From Treponema sp. (GTDB lineage Bacteria; Spirochaetota; Spirochaetia; Treponematales; Breznakiellaceae): a stretch of DNA of 43,882 nt. Numbering within the stretch: the first letter of the stretch is position 1; each line of letters opens with the position of its first letter. Shown here in pieces: positions 47 to 41,628 of the stretch. Both the position numbers and the translations under genes were made by a program. The notes beneath the pieces were generated by a model, which saw only the letters and a program-made list of their open reading frames with translations, was not told the DNA's origin and did not search any database. The DNA is taken from NCBI GenBank assembly GCA_009781635.1, contig WQXU01000022.1:1-43882 (forward strand), given 5' to 3'.

Positions 47-75
47 ATTCTATCATGTCTTATGTACTTTGTAAA
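47..75 (-). promoter_or_regulatory. Promoter of the left-edge gene
   Basis: On the minus strand, TTTACA (70-75) is followed after exactly 17 nt by TAGAAT (47-52), with TG one base upstream of the -10 box (extended -10). Six nucleotides separate the -10 from the ATG at 38-40, so transcription would be expected to start at or next to the A of the ATG. Confidence 0.5.
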
Positions 76-85
76 TTTTGACCAT

Positions 86-130
86 AAAAAAGGCTGCCCA
101 AGATTACTTCTCGGACAGCCCCTTTTTTTT
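86..130. terminator. Bidirectional terminator-like hairpin between divergent promoters
   Basis: A 12-bp arm (92-103) pairs with 109-120 around a 5-nt loop. It is followed by eight T on the plus strand (123-130) and six T on the minus strand (86-91). The two plus-strand C-A mismatches become G-U pairs in the minus-strand RNA, so the fold is stronger in that direction. It lies between the -35 regions of the left-edge gene and scpA, an unusual place for a terminator; it may insulate the two promoters or be a remnant of an older arrangement. Confidence 0.6.
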
Positions 131-140
131 CTGCTGCTTG

Positions 141-169
141 TTCCATACCGGCCTTTATTTTGCTATAAT
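141..169 (+). promoter_or_regulatory. scpA promoter, extended -10
   Basis: A weak -35 (TTCCAT, 141-146) and a consensus TATAAT (164-169) are 17 nt apart. TG at 161-162 makes an extended -10 element. The scpA ATG begins 6 nt after the -10 box, so the transcript is predicted to be leaderless. Confidence 0.55.
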
Positions 170-175
170 AATTTA

Positions 176-910
176 ATGGAAAATCCGGCAGCACCGCGCA
201 GTTTTAAATTAAGCGAGTTTGAAGGTCCTCTTGATCTCCTGCTTTACATGATCCGCAAAAACGAAATTAATATTTATGATATCCCAATATCTCAAATAAC
301 AGAGCAGTATATATCCTGTCTGCGCAGCGCCGAAACACTGGAACTTGAAGATCTTACAAGTTTTCACACAATGGCAACGATGCTGCTCTACATAAAGAGC
401 CGCACCCTTTTACCGGTGAAAATGGACGATGACTTTGGCGAAGACCCAAGAGCTGAACTTGTAGAGCGGCTTATTGAATATCAAAAGTATAAAAAACTCT
501 CCGAGCTTATGGTTGAGAAAGAAAAAGAAAATGAGTGGATGATAGAAAGGCGAAGATTGCAGCACAATCTTCCTTTCGCAGAAGGCGATATGTGGGAAAA
601 GGTTGATATCTGGGATCTTGTAAAAACATTTTCCTCTCTTACATTAAATCTCCCTGCGGAACGTATTATTGATCTTTATGAAGAAGTTACTGTAAATGAA
701 AAAACAGCTCTGCTTTTTGAGTTCCTTGAAAACCGGGGTGAATGCAGATTTACAGATCTTGTTATAAGACAGGGAGCGCTGGATGTTGTCTGTTCATTTC
801 TTGCGGTTCTTGAGGCGGCTAAAATGCGTCTTATCGAACTCTTTCAAAACCGCCTCTTTGGTGATATTCTAATCAGGGCCTTGAAAGAACAGGGAGAAAA
901 TTGTGACTGA
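176..910 (+). CDS. scpA: Segregation and condensation protein A
   Basis: ScpA is the kleisin subunit of the bacterial SMC-ScpA-ScpB condensin, which compacts and helps segregate the chromosome. The protein has 244 residues, near the family norm. It opens with the ScpA signature FKLSEFEGPLDLLLYMIRK (about residues 8-26), which forms the SMC-neck-binding helices, and the C-terminal part is a winged-helix region. The frame is open further upstream to 62, but that extension would run through the terminator hairpin and promoter. The ATG at 176 is where family homology begins. There is no Shine-Dalgarno sequence and the TATAAT box is 6 nt away, so translation is probably leaderless. Its stop overlaps the scpB start by 8 nt. 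Confidence 0.93.
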   Translation: MENPAAPRSFKLSEFEGPLDLLLYMIRKNEINIYDIPISQITEQYISCLRSAETLELEDLTSFHTMATMLLYIKSRTLLPVKMDDDFGEDPRAELVERLIEYQKYKKLSELMVEKEKENEWMIERRRLQHNLPFAEGDMWEKVDIWDLVKTFSSLTLNLPAERIIDLYEEVTVNEKTALLFEFLENRGECRFTDLVIRQGALDVVCSFLAVLEAAKMRLIELFQNRLFGDILIRALKEQGENCD

Positions 911-24507: not shown

Positions 24508-24951
24508 ATGAAAAAAGTGATTCTGTTTTTTATATGTCTTAATATTACAGCTCTTTTCAGCGCGCATGCACAGCCGCATTACAATCACTTTGCCCTTGAG
24601 CATTTAAGAAACAGTCTTGATTACCTTATGCAGGGTGATTATTATAACGCAGTAATTTCAAGCAATCAGCTTATAAGAATAGATCCCAATTCGGCCATTA
24701 ACTATATAATAAGGGCCAGGGCCTTTTATGAAATGAACGAATATGACAGGGTTATTTTAGACTGTAACCACGCTATAAGGCTTGACAGAAACAATGCTGC
24801 AGCTTATACAATTCGCGGAAACGCGCATGGTAAGAAAGGCGATTTTACATTGGCTATTTCAGACTGGCAGGCTGCCATAAGAATAAACCCGGGTATTTCA
24901 GAAGCTGCGCATAATATTGAACTGGCGCGTCAGCAGCAGGAAAAACAGTAA
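24508..24951 (+). CDS. Small secreted TPR protein
   Basis: The 147-residue protein has a signal peptide (MKKVILFFICLNITALFSAHA) with a likely cut after AHA. About three tetratricopeptide repeats fill the rest (GDYYNAVISSNQLIRIDP, NEYDRVILDCNHAIRLD, GDFTLAISDWQAAIRINP). CAGGAG lies 5 nt before the ATG; an in-frame start at 24475 is less likely. It stands alone on the plus strand and ends 1 nt from the purD stop. The function is probably periplasmic protein interaction; no family-level role is recognised. Confidence 0.82.
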   Translation: MKKVILFFICLNITALFSAHAQPHYNHFALEHLRNSLDYLMQGDYYNAVISSNQLIRIDPNSAINYIIRARAFYEMNEYDRVILDCNHAIRLDRNNAAAYTIRGNAHGKKGDFTLAISDWQAAIRINPGISEAAHNIELARQQQEKQ

Positions 24952-29343: not shown

Positions 29344-29847
29344 TCAAGTAGCCGGGAACTCTGTTTCCATTTTTTTTGCCTTGATCTCTACTTCTGCTTC
29401 CATGTTTTTCATATACTGTTCAAGCCACAAGGATATATTTTTATTTTCAATGGCAAGGATGCGAACGGCAAGAAGGCCTGCGTTTTTTGCGCCGTTAACA
29501 GCAACTGTCGCAACGGGGATGCCTCCAGGCATTTGCACAATCGAAAGCAATGAATCAAGCCCGGAAAATGCTTGTGTTTTTACAGGCACTCCAATTACAG
29601 GAAGCGCAGTTATTGAAGCTGTCATACCAGGAAGATGAGCGGAGCCTCCTGCGCCTGCTATAATAACTTTAAGCCCGCGTTCCGCCGCAGTCTCTGCGTA
29701 TTTTACAAGACGCTTTACAGTACGATGCGCAGATACAATTGTCATTTCGTATGAGATACCGGCCTGTTCAAGGATTGCGGCGGCTTCCTTCATTACAGGA
29801 AGGTCAGAATCGCTGCCCATAATAATTCCAACATGCACATTTTTCAT
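29344..29847 (-). CDS. purE: N5-carboxyaminoimidazole ribonucleotide mutase
   Basis: Class I PurE moves the carboxyl group of N5-CAIR to C4, giving CAIR. The 167-residue protein has the signature [13 protein letters not shown] near the N-terminus, then SAHRT and [16 protein letters not shown]. Presence of purK next to it supports the class I (two-enzyme) route. It overlaps purK by 4 nt and is followed by 45 nt before purF. Confidence 0.96.
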
Positions 29848-30998
29848 TTTGAATCTCCTTCTGTGTTTTCACCGCCTATCTTTAGCAAATTACGTATATA
29901 TTCACTTTTTTCTATAGCTTCATTAAGGGTGCCGGATGTCACGGTAAAATGACCCATTTTCCGGTATGGCCTTGATTCAATTTTTCCGTAAAGGTGCAGG
30001 GAAAGCCCGGGAACATTCAAAGCTTTTTCAAAACCTTCTATAAGCATTTTTCCTCTGCTTTGTTTTTGCCCCAGAATATTTAACATTACAGCAGGCCTAA
30101 TAAGGCTTGTATCTCCAAGCGGAAGCCCTGCAATAGAACGAATATGCTGTTCAAACTGACAAGTTACACAGGCTTCCATTGTATAATGCCCTGAATTATG
30201 AGGACGGGGAGCCACTTCGTTAACCAGTATATTTCCGTGGTTATCAAGAAATAGCTCTACTCCGAAAATGCCAACTCCATCCAGAGCTTCAACAACACTT
30301 ATTGCAATTTCATGCGCGCAGGAAGCTGTTTTTTCATCAATGCGGGCAGGAGCTATAACTGTATCGCATATGTTATGATCGGGGTTAAAGGCCATTTCTG
30401 TTACGGGAAAAGCAGCAACAGAACCATCCTGGGCGCGGGCTACCATAACTGCAAGTTCCTTGTTTATGTCAATCATCTCCTCAAAAATCGATGGAGAGTT
30501 CATGGGAGCATCTTCTTTATTTTTTAAAACACGAACACCTCTGCCGTCATAACCGCCCCTCCTTGTTTTTTGCACAAGCGGAAATTTATTCGCGGAAAAA
30601 TCGAAGCTTTCAGGCTTATCACAGGTAAAGTATGATGATGTGGGGATTCCCTTTTTTACAAAGAGCTCTTTTTGAAAACCCTTATCCTGAATTATTCCAA
30701 GTACAGAAGCACAGGGATACATCCTGTATCCGCGGGATTCAAGATTTCCAAGGGCATCTATATTGATATGCTCTATTTCATAGGTCATGATATCTGACAC
30801 ACCTGCAAGTTTTTCAAGCGCATCAGGATCTTTAAGGCTTCCATTTATAAATATATCTGAAAGTGATTTTGCAGGCGCATCTTCAGAATCAAGAACCGCA
30901 AAACGAAAACCCAGCTTTTTTGAACGGTATATCATCATGCGGCCAAGCTGACCGCCCCCTATTATTCCGATAGTACCTGGTGGATAAAGAACCGGCAT
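29844..30998 (-). CDS. purK: N5-carboxyaminoimidazole ribonucleotide synthase
   Basis: PurK carboxylates AIR with bicarbonate and ATP, feeding PurE. The 384-residue ATP-grasp protein begins with [21 protein letters not shown]. It also has [19 protein letters not shown] and a metal-binding [18 protein letters not shown]. It is the first gene of the pur operon. There is no Shine-Dalgarno sequence; TGaTATAAT ends 6 nt before the ATG, so the mRNA is predicted to be leaderless and there is no room for a purine riboswitch. Confidence 0.95.
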
Positions 30999-31004
30999 AA
31001 CAAA

Positions 31005-31033
31005 ATTATATCAGGTAAAAATACAAAATGAAA
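31005..31033 (-). promoter_or_regulatory. pur operon promoter, extended -10
   Basis: On the minus strand TATAAT (31005-31010) is preceded by TG one base upstream, an extended -10. The -35 at 17 nt is weak (TTTCAT, 31028-31033). The purK ATG is 6 nt downstream of the -10 box. Confidence 0.6.
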
Positions 31034-31078
31034 CAAGCTAAAAATACATAATGATTAATAATGTTCATAATTTTATCA

Positions 31079-31107
31079 TTGAATATATGTATAATTTTTT
31101 ATATCAT
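31079..31107 (+). promoter_or_regulatory. metY promoter
   Basis: TTGAAT (31079-31084) and TATCAT (31102-31107) are 17 nt apart. The predicted leader is about 13 nt and holds AAGGAG (31115-31120). The region is AT-rich, and other -10-like hexamers overlap it. Confidence 0.45.
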
Positions 31108-31126
31108 AATTTATAAGGAGTTAACT

Positions 31127-32416
31127 ATGGCAGTTAAAAATTACCGGTTTGAAACAATCCAGGTTCACGCCGGACAGGAACAGGCGGATCCTGCAACAGG
31201 TTCACGCGCAGTTCCCATATATCAGACGACATCCTTTGTTTTCCCCGATTCAAGAACCGCTGCCGCCCGTTTTGCCCTTACAGAACCGGGAAATCTTTAT
31301 TCAAGACTTACAAACCCGACATGGGATATATTTGAGCAGCGTATGGCGGCTCTTGAAAAAGGGGAGGCAGCCCTTGCTGTCGCTTCAGGACAGGCCGCCA
31401 TCTGTTATGCGATTCAAAATATCGCAAGGACAGGAGATCATATCATAGCCGATACTCAAGTTTACGGCGGCACATATAATCTTTTTGCAAATACCTTCCA
31501 TGACATGGGCATAGAAACAACCTTCCTTGATTTAAATGATTTACAGAGTTATAAAAATGCAATAAAACCGAATACCAAGGCAGTTTTTTTTGAAACCCTC
31601 GGCAATCCCAATGCCTCAATTATTGACATAGAAGCAATAACACAGATTGCGCACAATCACGGAATCCCTGTAATTGCAGATAACTCTCTTGCCACTCCTT
31701 ATTTGTTAAGGCCAATAGAACACGGCGCTGATATTGTTGTTCATTCTGCGACGAAATTTATCGGAGGACACGGCACATCTATAGGAGGCGTAATTGTAGA
31801 CAGCGGCAAATTTGACTGGAAGCAAAACGATAAATTCCCTGGTTTGACAAAACCAAATCCAAGCTATCACGGCATTGTATTTACAGAAGCTGCTAAGAAC
31901 CTTGCCTTTATTGTCAAGGCGCGCACTACCCTGTTACGTGACACCGGCGCCTGCCTTTCGCCCTTTAATGCCTTTTTATTCCTGCAGGGTCTTGAAACTC
32001 TTTCACTGCGCGTAGAGCGCCATGTAGAAAACGCCTTAAAGGTTGTTAATTTCCTTAACGCCCATCCCCAGGTTGACAAAGTAAACCACCCCAGCCTTTC
32101 AGAGCATCGTGATTATGAACTTTATAAAAGATATTTTCCCAATGGGGCCGGAGCCATTTTCAGCATAGAAATAAAAGGCGGCAGCGAAAAAGCGCAAAAG
32201 TTTACAGAAAAGCTTAAATTATTTTCGCTTCTTGCAAATATGGCTGATGTAAAATCCCTTGTTATCCATCCTGCTTCCACAACGCATTCTCAAATTAATG
32301 AAAAAGAACTTCTTGAATGCGGGATAAAACCTTCGACCATAAGGCTTTCCATAGGAACAGAACACATTGATGATATTATAGACGATCTTAAGCAGGCCCT
32401 GGATGCGGTCAGCTGA
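31127..32416 (+). CDS. metY: O-acetylhomoserine sulfhydrylase
   Basis: This PLP enzyme makes homocysteine (or methionine) from O-acetylhomoserine and sulfide. The 429-residue protein starts MAVKNYRFETIQVHAGQE and has the PLP-binding Lys210 in HSATKFIGGHG. NLYSRLTNPTWDIFEQRMAALE and HPASTTHSQ are Cys/Met-metabolism family signatures. The length of about 430 residues and the sequence KPNPSYHG favour the MetY branch over cystathionine enzymes. AAGGAG lies 6 nt before the ATG. cysK follows, so the pair handles sulfide assimilation into both amino acids. Confidence 0.93.
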   Translation: MAVKNYRFETIQVHAGQEQADPATGSRAVPIYQTTSFVFPDSRTAAARFALTEPGNLYSRLTNPTWDIFEQRMAALEKGEAALAVASGQAAICYAIQNIARTGDHIIADTQVYGGTYNLFANTFHDMGIETTFLDLNDLQSYKNAIKPNTKAVFFETLGNPNASIIDIEAITQIAHNHGIPVIADNSLATPYLLRPIEHGADIVVHSATKFIGGHGTSIGGVIVDSGKFDWKQNDKFPGLTKPNPSYHGIVFTEAAKNLAFIVKARTTLLRDTGACLSPFNAFLFLQGLETLSLRVERHVENALKVVNFLNAHPQVDKVNHPSLSEHRDYELYKRYFPNGAGAIFSIEIKGGSEKAQKFTEKLKLFSLLANMADVKSLVIHPASTTHSQINEKELLECGIKPSTIRLSIGTEHIDDIIDDLKQALDAVS

Positions 32417-32449
32417 ACAGGCCGCGGCAATTTTTTTTAAGGATTGATT

Positions 32450-33364
32450 TTGATTGCGGAAAAAATAACAGATTTAATCGGTAATACTCCTTTAGTCAAA
32501 TTAAACAGGATAAATAAAAGCGATGCATTAATTTATGCAAAGCTTGAAAGTTTTAATCCCCATCACAGTATAAAAGACCGTATTGCCCTTGCCATGATCG
32601 AAACTGCGGAAAATGAAGGAAAGTTAAAAAAAGGTGATGTAATAATTGAGCCAACAAGCGGCAATACGGGAATTGGACTTGCATATATTGCCGCAGTCAA
32701 GGGATACAAAATCATTCTTACCATGCCTGATACAATGAGCGAAGAAAGACAAAAACATCTTCTTGCACTTGGAGCGCAGCTAGTACTTACAGACGGAAAA
32801 AACGGAATGAAGGGTGCAATAGAAAAGGCCCGGGAAATAGCAGCTTCGATTCCCAATTCATTTATACCTCAGCAATTTGAAAACCCTGCAAATCCCCTTG
32901 CTCACGAAAAGACAACAGGCCCTGAAATCTGGGATGACAGCAAGGGGAAAGTTGATTTTCTTGTAGGCGGCGTTGGAACAGGCGGCACTCTAAGCGGTGC
33001 AGGCAGATTTCTAAAATCAAAAAAAAGCGGGATACAGATAATCGCTGTTGAACCTGAAGGCTCTCCTGTATTATCAGGCGGCAATCCGGGAGCTCATAAA
33101 ATTCAGGGAATCGGTGCAGGTTTTATCCCTGCCGTTTATGACTCATCTGTAATTGACGCAATTTATAAAATTGATGATGAAAAGGCAGCCCTTACAGCCC
33201 GCAGGCTTGCAAGGGAAGAAGGAATTCTTGCAGGAATCTCATCCGGAGCTGCTTTGGAAGCTGCTCTTGCAATCGCAGAACGCCCTGATAATAAGGGAAA
33301 AATGATTGTTGTTATTTTAAGCGACAGCGGGGAGAGGTATTTATCAACCTGGATGTGGGAATGA
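32450..33364 (+). CDS. cysK: Cysteine synthase A
   Basis: CysK forms cysteine from O-acetylserine and sulfide using PLP. The 304-residue protein shows [13 protein letters not shown] at the N-terminus, the PLP Lys42 in HHSIKDR, the substrate loop [15 protein letters not shown], and the phosphate-binding [14 protein letters not shown] start it at TTG 32450 because AAGGA (32439-32443) is 6 nt upstream; TTG at 32444 is the alternative. It follows metY by 33 nt, so the two are probably co-transcribed. Confidence 0.94.
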
Positions 33365-33377
33365 GCACTTTTAATCA

Positions 33378-33406
33378 TTGACCTAATATTCATTTCTTTT
33401 TAATAT
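33378..33406 (+). promoter_or_regulatory. Promoter of the peptide-binding lipoprotein
   Basis: TTGACC (33378-33383) and TAATAT (33401-33406) are 17 nt apart, and the ATG begins after 6 more nt at 33413. No Shine-Dalgarno sequence can fit, so a leaderless transcript is predicted. Confidence 0.6.
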
Positions 33407-33412
33407 TAATAA

Positions 33413-35233
33413 ATGAAATACATTTCCATATTAATGGCTGTTTTCCTGCTGCTCTTTTTTTCCTGTCTAAGGCATGAAGAATTATCACTTGAACATTTTG
33501 AAGATTTCAGCCCTGCAGGCCTTGCAGAGCTTCTTGAAAAAACAGTAAGCAAACCCTGGCGCGGAGAAGATTTTATTCCCGGAAAGCTCGGCGGAACATG
33601 GTTTTCTGTAATAAATAACGATCCAAAAAGTTTTAACCTTCTTATTGCAGAACAGGACAGCGCAACAGCCTCTGTAGTACGCAGGATGACAGAGTATCTT
33701 ATTGACTATGATGTAATAAAAAGAGAATGGAAACCAAATGCAGCCTCTTTTGAAATTGTTGTTGACGAAGCAAACGATACATTGCAGGTAATTTATACCC
33801 TTCGCGACGATCTTTACTGGAGTTACTATAATTCAAACAGAAGGGTGAAAGTAACAAGCGATGATGTTATTTTCTGGTACAATGAAATAACAGGAGACCC
33901 CTTGTTTAACAGTTCAGGTTACACAGGGCAGTTTCTTGTAATGCCCGACGGAAGCTCTCAGCGCATCAACATAATAAAAATTGATTCTTTGCGCTTTGCT
34001 TTTCATTTTCCCAGAATTATTGCAGAGCCGCTTTTATCTACAAATATGGATTTCGGTCCCAGGCATATATTTGAAGAAGCCAAAATTAGAGGCGGTATTG
34101 AAGGAGTAAGAAACCTTTTTAGCGTCGCAGTTGATCCTGTTACAATTCCCTCCGCAGGCGAATGGTTTTTGGTTGAATACACTCCGGGGCAAAGGCTTTT
34201 GTATAAGCGTAATGCCGATTACTGGAGAAAGGATTCCAGCGGCGTATCACTTCCATATGTTGAAGAAATTGTATTAAGAATTATTCCGGAAGAAAATACC
34301 CAGCTTCTTCTTTTCAGAAACTCAGAGATTGAATCTTACAGCCTTCGCCCGGAAGACCTTGACGCTCTTGTAAACAGACAGGACGGAAGATATACGGTCT
34401 TTAATTCCGAAGGTTCCCTTAATGCGTCTTTTTGGACTTTCAACCAGAATCCTTTAAACAGCGGGAAACCCCAATATGACTGGTTTACAAAAAAAGAATT
34501 CAGACAGGCAATGAGCTGTCTTTTAAACCGTGACAGAATAAACGCGCAAGTTTACCGCGGTCTTGCAGAACCAAAGCTCTCAATTTTTCCGCAGCCCAAT
34601 CCTTACTATAATCCTGAAATAAAACTGCAATATCTTTTTGATGCAGAACGCGCTGTAAAACTTTTATCCTCTATCGGCATAAACATGGACAGGTCAGGAA
34701 CAATGCGTGACAGTGAAAACCGCCAGATTGAGTTTGACCTGACGATAAGATCTGAAAGTTCGATTCAGCAGGATACAGCTCTTATAATTATGGATGAGCT
34801 TTCAAAGATTGGAATTAAGATTAATATCCGCGTTATAGATTTCCAGAAACAGGTTCAGCAGTTATTCGAAACTTTTGACTGGGATTCAACATTAATCGGG
34901 CTTTCAGGCTCGGGTATTTTTCCAAGCCAGGGCAGCAATGTATGGCCCTCATCGGGTAATCTGCATATGTGGCATCCGAACCAGATAACACCTGTAACAG
35001 AATGGGAAGCAAGAATTGACTATCTTTATAACGAAGGGCAATTTACGCTGGACAGAGACAAGGCAAAATTGATATGGGATGAGTTTCAGTCTATTCTGCT
35101 TGAACAAAACCCCATGATTTATCTTATGCGCCCAAGAGGTTTTTGGGCATTAAACAACAGATGGGATTTTACCAATGTTTATTTTGACAACATGAACGGC
35201 CCAGAAACAAAATTCATTTTTCTAAAGCAATAA
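33413..35233 (+). CDS. Extracytoplasmic solute-binding lipoprotein, family 5 (oligopeptide type)
   Basis: The 606-residue protein has a lipoprotein signal (MKYISILMAVFLLLFFSC) with Cys18 as the predicted lipid anchor. The SBP_bac_5 fold follows; typical features are LGGTWFSVINNDPKSFN, the TSDDVIFWYNEI block, YKRNADYWRK and the later FRQAMSCLLNRDRIN. It would capture peptides or similar solutes for an ABC importer. No permease or ATPase genes are nearby, so it is an orphan receptor that must share a transporter or signal otherwise. It has its own promoter. Confidence 0.88.
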   Translation: MKYISILMAVFLLLFFSCLRHEELSLEHFEDFSPAGLAELLEKTVSKPWRGEDFIPGKLGGTWFSVINNDPKSFNLLIAEQDSATASVVRRMTEYLIDYDVIKREWKPNAASFEIVVDEANDTLQVIYTLRDDLYWSYYNSNRRVKVTSDDVIFWYNEITGDPLFNSSGYTGQFLVMPDGSSQRINIIKIDSLRFAFHFPRIIAEPLLSTNMDFGPRHIFEEAKIRGGIEGVRNLFSVAVDPVTIPSAGEWFLVEYTPGQRLLYKRNADYWRKDSSGVSLPYVEEIVLRIIPEENTQLLLFRNSEIESYSLRPEDLDALVNRQDGRYTVFNSEGSLNASFWTFNQNPLNSGKPQYDWFTKKEFRQAMSCLLNRDRINAQVYRGLAEPKLSIFPQPNPYYNPEIKLQYLFDAERAVKLLSSIGINMDRSGTMRDSENRQIEFDLTIRSESSIQQDTALIIMDELSKIGIKINIRVIDFQKQVQQLFETFDWDSTLIGLSGSGIFPSQGSNVWPSSGNLHMWHPNQITPVTEWEARIDYLYNEGQFTLDRDKAKLIWDEFQSILLEQNPMIYLMRPRGFWALNNRWDFTNVYFDNMNGPETKFIFLKQ

Positions 35234-40359: not shown

Positions 40360-40692
40360 TTATATAATTTCTATTAATCCATATTCATTTTTTTTTAAAT
40401 CTTCTATTTTTGATTTAATGTTTACAAATAATTCCATAATTGCTTTACTGCTATTATTTCCGGTTTTTAATAAAACTACTTTTGGCGGAAAACCTTTTAA
40501 TTCCAGCAAATTTATAAAATCATTATCTTTTGTTATTATTATAAATCCATTATTCTTCGCATATTTCCATATATCTATATCTTGTACAGGTACATTTATG
40601 CCTATTAAATCAACATGTTCGCATTCACCAAATATTGGTTTTAACTTATTTATCAATTTATAAGAAATATTTGCATCAAGTAATATTTTCAT
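40360..40692 (-). CDS. DUF5615 PIN-like toxin
   Basis: The 110-residue protein begins MKILLDANISYKLINKL and carries IIITKDNDFINLLELKGFP. These are the two acidic motifs of the DUF5615 (Mut7-C-like) PIN-fold family, which are probable ribonuclease toxins. Its ATG directly follows the stop of the DUF433 gene, the usual antitoxin partner. The DNA is much more AT-rich than the neighbouring core genes, consistent with acquisition. Confidence 0.85.
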   Translation of the reverse strand: MKILLDANISYKLINKLKPIFGECEHVDLIGINVPVQDIDIWKYAKNNGFIIITKDNDFINLLELKGFPPKVVLLKTGNNSSKAIMELFVNIKSKIEDLKKNEYGLIEII

Positions 40693-40929
40693 TTACGCCG
40701 CTGCAATTACTCTTACAATTTCTTCCCGCCTTGCCGCAAAAGATAGAGCTGCTTTTATATGTATTTCTTTTAATAATGGATAATCATCCAATATTTCTGA
40801 TACAGTAATGCCTTCTGATAACCACTGAAGAATATCTCCAACAGTTATTCTAGTACCTTTAATACATGGTTTCCCAAAACGAATTCCATTGTCAATTACT
40901 ATGTAATTTAATAATTCCTCAATTCCCAT
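40693..40929 (-). CDS. DUF433 antitoxin
   Basis: The 78-residue protein has the DUF433 pattern: IRFGKPCIKGTRITVGDILQWLSEG, then EILDDYPLLKEIHIKAALSFAA. It is a winged-helix protein that represses its operon and neutralises the DUF5615 partner. There is no Shine-Dalgarno sequence, and the -10 box ends 7 nt before the ATG. Confidence 0.87.
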   Translation of the reverse strand: MGIEELLNYIVIDNGIRFGKPCIKGTRITVGDILQWLSEGITVSEILDDYPLLKEIHIKAALSFAARREEIVRVIAAA

Positions 40930-40936
40930 TCTTCAG

Positions 40937-40965
40937 ATTATATACTATTTTTTTTATTTTGTCCA
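40937..40965 (-). promoter_or_regulatory. Promoter of the DUF433-DUF5615 module
   Basis: On the minus strand TGGACA (40960-40965) and TATAAT (40937-40942) are 17 nt apart, with the ATG 7 nt further on. Confidence 0.65.
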
Positions 40966-40999: not shown

Positions 41000-41386
41000 T
41001 TACCAGATTTGAGACACTTCGTACTTGACGATATTTTCATCAACGGTAATAAGCGTCATATTCTCGGCAATAGCTGTCGCAATGAGCAAACGGTCGAAGG
41101 GGTCTCGGTGGATCATTGGAAGATTTTCAAGGGTGCTAAGGTGTGTAGGTTTTATGGGAGCAAGTATAAAACCGTTTCTTTCAATATCATAAATAAAGCC
41201 AGCCACTTTACCACTAAATTCCAGCTTACCCAAACTAACTTTTATTGCAATTTCCCAAGCAGAAACGATGCTGACGTATTTAATATTTGAAGTGTTAAAA
41301 ATTATCTTTTTAGCAGTTTCAGAAAGCGAATTATCGCCATTAAAAAACCAAATGGCAGAATGGGTATCCAACAAATAGCGGTTCAT
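41000..41386 (-). CDS. PIN-domain toxin, VapC type
   Basis: The 128-residue protein has the PIN-domain acidic residues in YLLDTHSAIWF (Asp7), SAWEIAIK (Glu) and DPFDRLLIATAIAENMTLITVDENI (shown in separate parts: DPFDRLLIATA and LITVDENI). It is a likely sequence-specific ribonuclease toxin. Its ATG directly follows the stop codon of the upstream antitoxin gene. Confidence 0.88.
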   Translation of the reverse strand: MNRYLLDTHSAIWFFNGDNSLSETAKKIIFNTSNIKYVSIVSAWEIAIKVSLGKLEFSGKVAGFIYDIERNGFILAPIKPTHLSTLENLPMIHRDPFDRLLIATAIAENMTLITVDENIVKYEVSQIW

Positions 41387-41593
41387 TTACATATAGTCCT
41401 TAAAATCCTCAAGCGGAGCATCAAAATCATCTGCCATACGATATTTACCTTTGGAACAGCCAAAAACAGGAACCTTTTTTGGCTCTGTATTCGCAGATGT
41501 AAAAGTAATAATAACGGGTCCAGACGGAATTTCACTAGGCACAGTAACCTGCCTGTAGTTGTCCGTAATTTCCACGGTTTGTGTAATACTCAT
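41387..41593 (-). CDS. Antitoxin of the VapC-type toxin, DUF2281-like
   Basis: The 68-residue protein has a short beta-rich N-terminus (TVEITDNYRQVTVPSEIPSG) and a C-terminal DFDAPLEDFKDYM, the tail commonly found on DUF2281 antitoxins that plugs the PIN active site. No ribosome binding site is seen; TATATT ends 6 nt before the ATG. Confidence 0.78.
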   Translation of the reverse strand: MSITQTVEITDNYRQVTVPSEIPSGPVIITFTSANTEPKKVPVFGCSKGKYRMADDFDAPLEDFKDYM

Positions 41594-41599
41594 AAAGTA

Positions 41600-41628
41600 A
41601 ATATAGCGTGGAAAACAAAGAAAAACAA
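41600..41628 (-). promoter_or_regulatory. Promoter of the vapBC-type module
   Basis: On the minus strand TTGTTT (41623-41628) and TATATT (41600-41605) are 17 nt apart, with 6 nt to the ATG at 41593. Confidence 0.5.

Follow-up and report, generated by a model that had tools for sequence, protein, structure and literature searches.

About 11% of the transcription unit heads in the genome of this Treponema sp. very probably carry sigma-70-type promoters positioned so that they would yield leaderless mRNAs, with Shine-Dalgarno (SD) sequences employed elsewhere. The critical feature is the gap, that is, the number of nucleotides between the end of the TANNNT hexamer of the -10 box and the start codon; at gap 6, the hexamer occupies positions -12 to -7. 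In the proposed mechanism, a sigma-70-type promoter (TTGACA, a 16-18 nt spacer and TANNNT, often TGn-extended) would direct the RNA polymerase to initiate at the A of the start codon, so that the mRNA would have no 5' untranslated region. The ribosome, probably as the 70S particle or with the help of IF2, would then recognize the 5'-terminal AUG itself, a mode of translation initiation that has been reviewed for leaderless mRNAs (PMC9031893). Leaderless initiation would serve this share of the heads beside a working SD system for the remaining ones, and selection would keep, gene by gene across the family, the distance between the -10 box and the ATG, 6 nt being its commonest value.

Promoter boxes at start codons in the window

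The window, a stretch of 43,882 nt, is contig C22 of a 2.77 Mb genome assembly that consists of 51 contigs and has a GC content of ~41%. The original prediction listed six heads in the window with a -10 box immediately before the ATG, and all six spacings turned out to be exact, five at 6 nt and one, that of the DUF433 gene, at 7 nt. Upstream of the gene for a peptide-binding lipoprotein of the SBP_bac_5 family (33413..35233, + strand; Pfam PF00496, E=2e-50), the -35 box TTGACC (33378..33383) is followed, after 17 nt, by the -10 box TAATAT (33401..33406), which ends 6 nt before the ATG at 33413, the predicted 5' end of the mRNA. This start is backed by the signal peptide MKYISILMAVFLLLFFSC, which begins there, and by the MK starts of most orthologues. 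On the - strand, the purK-like gene (29844..30998; Pfam ATP-grasp, RS_preATP-grasp-like and PurK_C), which is predicted to be leaderless, has the extended -10 box TGaTATAAT (31005..31010) 6 nt before the ATG at 30998, the first possible start codon of this frame. The scpA gene (176..910, + strand; PF02616), also predicted to be leaderless in the window, is preceded by the extended -10 box TGcTATAAT (hexamer at 164..169), again 6 nt before the ATG at 176, a start that the orthologues favor over the alternative at 62. In the window, the -35 box is weak or absent at both purK and scpA.

The two remaining interior heads, both on the - strand, belong to antitoxin-like genes. Six nucleotides separate the box TATATT (41600..41605) from the antitoxin-like ATG at 41593, which opens a predicted leaderless unit (41000..41593) of a DUF2281 antitoxin-like gene (41387-41593; PF10047) and a PIN-domain toxin-like gene (41000-41386; PF01850). 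The box TATAAT (40937..40942) lies 7 nt before the ATG at 40929 of a putative toxin-antitoxin pair (40360..40929) that comprises DUF433 (40693-40929; PF04255) and DUF5615 (40360-40692; PF18480) and is predicted to be leaderless or to have a 1-nt leader. At the left edge, the promoter TTTACA-17-TAGAAT (47..75, - strand) ends 6 nt before the ATG at 40, but this frame is not verifiable as a gene because only 13 codons precede the contig end. A terminator-like hairpin followed by a T-run (92..120, + strand; -13.8 kcal/mol, z -2.1) lies between the alternative scpA starts; this element (92-128) is flanked by the diverging heads of the left-edge frame (ATG 40, - strand) and scpA (ATG 176, + strand). 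Other heads in the window are SD-led, with AAGGAG before the metY start at 31127 and ACAGGA before the TPR gene at 24508. The listed heads indeed lack SD sequences, as originally claimed, but this absence follows in part from the geometry itself, with a -10 box at -12 to -7 taking the place of the SD.

A spacing peak at unit heads across the genome

A genome-wide histogram of the spacing had been named beforehand as the test of the leaderless reading, and it displays a sharp peak at 6 nt, confined to SD-less unit heads. We drew 40 segments of 20 kb each from this genome (~0.8 Mb), with genes called by a coding-potential model that is blind to upstream sequence. The sample includes 290 unit heads, of which 181 lack an SD core. 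SD cores were detected in 109 of the 290 heads (~38%) and in 122 of the 250 operon-internal genes (~50%), in agreement with the earlier proposal that two start modes coexist; given that no 16S rRNA gene was found in the assembly, so that the anti-SD could not be read, we infer a working SD system from the SD peak. The TANNNT hexamer occurs at gap 6 in 28 of the 181 SD-less heads, compared to about 7 at each other spacing, and the full consensus TATAAT occurs at gap 6 in 8 SD-less heads, compared to less than one at other spacings. A second count, with the window left out and heads with shorter divergent gaps admitted, hence the slight difference, yielded 29 gap-6 boxes among 173 SD-less heads, where other spacings averaged 7.3, and none of 2000 random-gap trials reached 29, so the constancy of the spacing is, as had been argued, beyond chance. 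Gap 6 is the sole strongly enriched spacing in the sample, placing the first T of TANNNT at -12.

A mixture model built on a fixed consensus matrix assigned the leaderless signal to 20% of the SD-less heads and 11% of all heads, with an LLR of 34.6 at gap 6 versus at most 4.1 at control spacings; for operon-internal genes, the same model yielded no signal (f=0, LLR 0). Extrapolated from the ~11% of heads, the leaderless share of all genes is perhaps about 5%. The gap-6 heads are mostly divergent (24 of 29, compared to 67 of the 144 other SD-less heads), as expected, because such genes need a promoter of their own. The string TTATCGG that recurs near starts is not enriched (3 occurrences versus 1.7 expected).

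Further promoter signals emerge when heads are selected by the hexamer alone. At positions -35 to -30 from the ATG, a -35 element appears, with T at -35 in 85%, G at -33 in 50% and A at -30 in 65% of the heads, and G is present at -14, the mark of an extended -10 box, in 50% of the gap-6 heads. A TTGACA-like -35 at 16-18 nt, as in sigma-70-type promoters, emerges in the G000 set. The base at -1 is initiator-like, being a pyrimidine in 86% of the gap-6 heads compared to 43-52% in other gene classes. Bacterial transcription usually initiates at a purine preceded by a pyrimidine, and the pyrimidine at -1 thus would make the A of the ATG the 5' end.

These signals bear on two alternatives. The boxes could be chance TATAAT-like strings in AT-rich DNA, with leaders coming from promoters located further upstream. 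At 41% GC, TANNNT is indeed common, such that about 7 SD-less heads per spacing are accounted for by chance, and scanning 30500-33700 for generic promoters did not yield more sites than shuffled sequence did. However, chance predicts neither a sharp excess at one spacing that is lacking in operon-internal genes, nor the emergence of the -35 and -1 signals, nor the conservation of the boxes in orthologues with GC-rich spacers, so we consider this explanation highly improbable, even if chance can still account for roughly 7 of the 29 individual gap-6 heads. Alternatively, the AT-rich stretch before the ATG might act in translation, as the Kozak-like or S1-binding context of Bacteroidota does, rather than as a promoter. 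For AT-rich biases before non-SD starts, both interpretations exist in the literature (PMC5397173), but a translation signal should be apparent also in SD-less operon-internal genes, where the model detected none, and a -35 box at 16-18 nt has no translational meaning; accordingly, we give this possibility hardly any credence. Promoters that set transcription to start at the ATG remain the preferred reading.

Conservation in orthologues and distribution among spirochaetes

The relatives of the window's lipoprotein come nearly all from metagenome assemblies named Treponema or other spirochaetes; the isolate codes of many of these presumably denote termite-gut samples. With nearby in-frame starts allowed, TANNNT was found at gap 6 in 26 of 32 orthologues from related genomes, and at gap 5 in two, gap 7 in one and gap 9 in one. 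Under a strict choice of the start, 23 of 33 lipoprotein genes, including that in the window, have gap 6, compared to a mean of 0.8 at other gaps. A TTGACA-like -35 (at least 5 of 6 matches, 16-18 nt) is present in 16 of these 23 gap-6 promoters, with 0.014 expected per promoter, and no SD core was detected among the 23, again a partly automatic result given that the box fills the SD site. Thus, the lipoprotein promoters have conserved the -10 box together with its gap and, in most cases, the -35 box, and the spacer, GC-rich in some orthologues, has diverged. The more distant lipoprotein orthologues mostly possess SD cores (L016, L028, L037, L040, L041, L044), and others have neither signal. 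In one orthologue (L001, upstream of 10001), GGAGG stands in place of the leaderless promoter, which, judging from the upstream sequence, appears to be a natural switch of the initiation mode. In three others (L010-L012), a -10 box is located 6-7 nt before an in-frame ATG that lies 14-15 codons upstream of the homology-based start, suggesting that the N-terminus of these lipoproteins may be longer than homology alone would give.

In the scpA orthologues, a -10 box near the start is conserved as well, but the gaps range from 4 to 10 and are mostly 8-9, so that leaders of 1-3 nt are predicted. Consequently, the proposal that transcription starts from the A of the ATG is supported by the promoter geometry, the -1 base and the conservation, but the word "exactly" was too strong for scpA. 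Together with the gap of 7 at DUF433 and the greater number of gap-7 matches with long frames (5 of 8) in the genomes of family f2, these distances could favor another interpretation, namely, that the promoters are real but the leaders are short, with transcripts starting 1-5 nt upstream, or that translation truly begins at a downstream codon that has an SD of its own. Yet, the peak is at 6, the base at -1 is mostly a pyrimidine, the signal peptide of the lipoprotein orthologues starts from the gap-6 ATG, and the purK frame has no earlier start codon, which makes this interpretation improbable and leaves transcription from the ATG itself as the favored explanation.

For the order as a whole, we counted matches to the pattern TTGAC-N17..19-TANNNT-N6-ATG in whole genomes, with the same pattern and an 11-nt gap as the control. 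In the four families of the order, the ratios of gap 6 to gap 11 matches were 580:170, 319:92, 332:76 and 320:79, a 3.4- to 4.4-fold excess, and the gap-6 count was the higher one in 59 of 59 genomes; counts for gap 8 were intermediate between the two. Among the matches in the family genomes, the base at -1 is a pyrimidine in 82% at gap 6 versus 32% at gap 11 (p=2e-6). Because any promoter prefers A at +1, an excess of gap-6 ATGs could arise without these being start codons, and this preference could explain part of the raw excess; countering this, in the window's genome, to which this comparison pertains, 15 of 22 gap-6 ATGs are followed by frames of 60 or more codons, compared to 44 of 128 ATGs at other gaps (p=0.004).

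In other Spirochaetota, the excess is patchy. It is strong in a Leptospira-like genome of two contigs (G040, 24:3) and its congener (G050, 22:3), and is absent, by whole-genome counts, in several other spirochaetes, e.g. G003, G007, G013 and G023, which, lacking the excess, serve as internal negative controls. Samples of 200 kb with gene models from G018, G041, G006 and G058 showed no gap-6 peak. The conclusion that the trait was missing in family f2, to which G018 belongs, was nevertheless rejected as a problem of statistical power, given the whole-genome count of 36 versus 12; the 1.1 Mb genome G041 has almost no matches of either kind (2 versus 0). A very strong gap-6 peak in pooled relatives was discarded because the loci had been fetched by the lipoprotein itself. 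With the lipoprotein gene removed, the pooled relatives display a weak peak (5 versus 2.7, p 0.14; for consensus boxes, 3 versus 0.64, p 0.03), and the discarded figure was replaced by the whole-genome counts and the separate genomes. As controls, neither the Agreia (Actinobacteria) loci, too small and GC-rich for a positive one, nor the 50 kb of E. coli, too small for a negative one, were adequate.

Known leaderless systems and the biology of the order

The heads in the window probably fall within the known TANNNT class of leaderless genes, for which there are earlier predictions from some spirochaetes and experimental mapping from Leptospira. Zheng et al. (2011, PMC3160421) described TA-led leaderless genes, SD-less genes in which the first T of TANNNT lies ~12 bp before the start, and assigned leaderless genes to 6 of 18 spirochaete genomes, at 1.8-6.9% of the genes. 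The geometry in the window's genome is the same, with the hexamer at -12 to -7; the text of that survey does not mention Treponema, whereas here one lineage was analyzed gene by gene, including the -35 box, the -1 base and the orthologue footprints. In Leptospira interrogans, which belongs to the same phylum but a different class, dRNA-seq detected about 440 mRNAs with leaders shorter than 10 nt, half of these shorter than 2 nt (PMC5243855), so that what was measured there is predicted here. The mapped starts of Mycobacterium tuberculosis, where -1 is most frequently C and toxin-antitoxin pairs are favored among the leaderless genes, resemble the present case in the TANNNT at the ATG, the pyrimidine at -1 and the toxin-antitoxin association, with which the two antitoxin-like heads in the window fit; however, ~1/4 of the M. 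tuberculosis genes are leaderless, without a strong -35, compared to ~1/9 of the heads and a clear -35 here (PMC3898074). In Deinococcus-Thermus, the -10 box adjoining the ORF was found, in reporter tests, to be the promoter of leaderless genes; there, ~30% of the ORFs are involved, and the dependence on sequences beyond the -10 motif is weak (PMC12340547).

Several other arrangements were noticed in the course of this analysis. In three divergent gene pairs (L077:17698-19877, L089:9757-13577 and L194 near 1130-1186), the ATGs are separated by 47, 47 and 55 nt, respectively, and TANNNT is found at gap 6 on both sides, so that the two promoters overlap and neither mRNA of a pair would have a leader; the L089 pair includes a secA-like gene. 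A divergent pair of gap-6 promoters recurs in three genera (G081:C30:22267-22350, G087:C1:269207-269302 and G074:C32:27721-27864), with closely similar sequences (TCTAGAAT... and CCGTAGA.TTTTA.CATG), suggestive of a conserved, putatively leaderless pair. In G065:C8:15927, G081:C87:907 and G082:C10:22452, a gap-8 promoter overlaps the palindrome TTGTACTAGTACA, which is repeated up to the start codon and resembles the operator of an autoregulated gene. In an AT-rich genome from another family (G029:C1), there are more than 10 near-identical copies of TTGACAAATAAAATTATTCTGTTATAATATTCTTATG, all with gap 6, apparently a repeated family with leaderless geometry.

It is conceivable, albeit doubtful at this stage, that, across the order, initiation without a leader is tied to particular genes and maintained there by selection, including conserved genes and even essential ones (scpA, secA-like, parA-like), with orthologues cleanly switching between the SD-led and leaderless modes, and with some divergent pairs (47-55 nt between the ATGs) sharing a compact promoter region that would leave both transcripts leaderless and force their expression to be either coordinated or mutually exclusive. 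With the genes predicted here, the known leaderless class would expand to include a large order of spirochaetes from the gut and the environment, and there are now named genes with cultured relatives in which leaderless starts could be measured. For some genes in these bacteria, start-site annotation, SD-based gene finders and expression constructs will misplace the start or fail, and the orthologues that pass from the SD-led to the leaderless state would represent natural experiments on the evolution of initiation modes.
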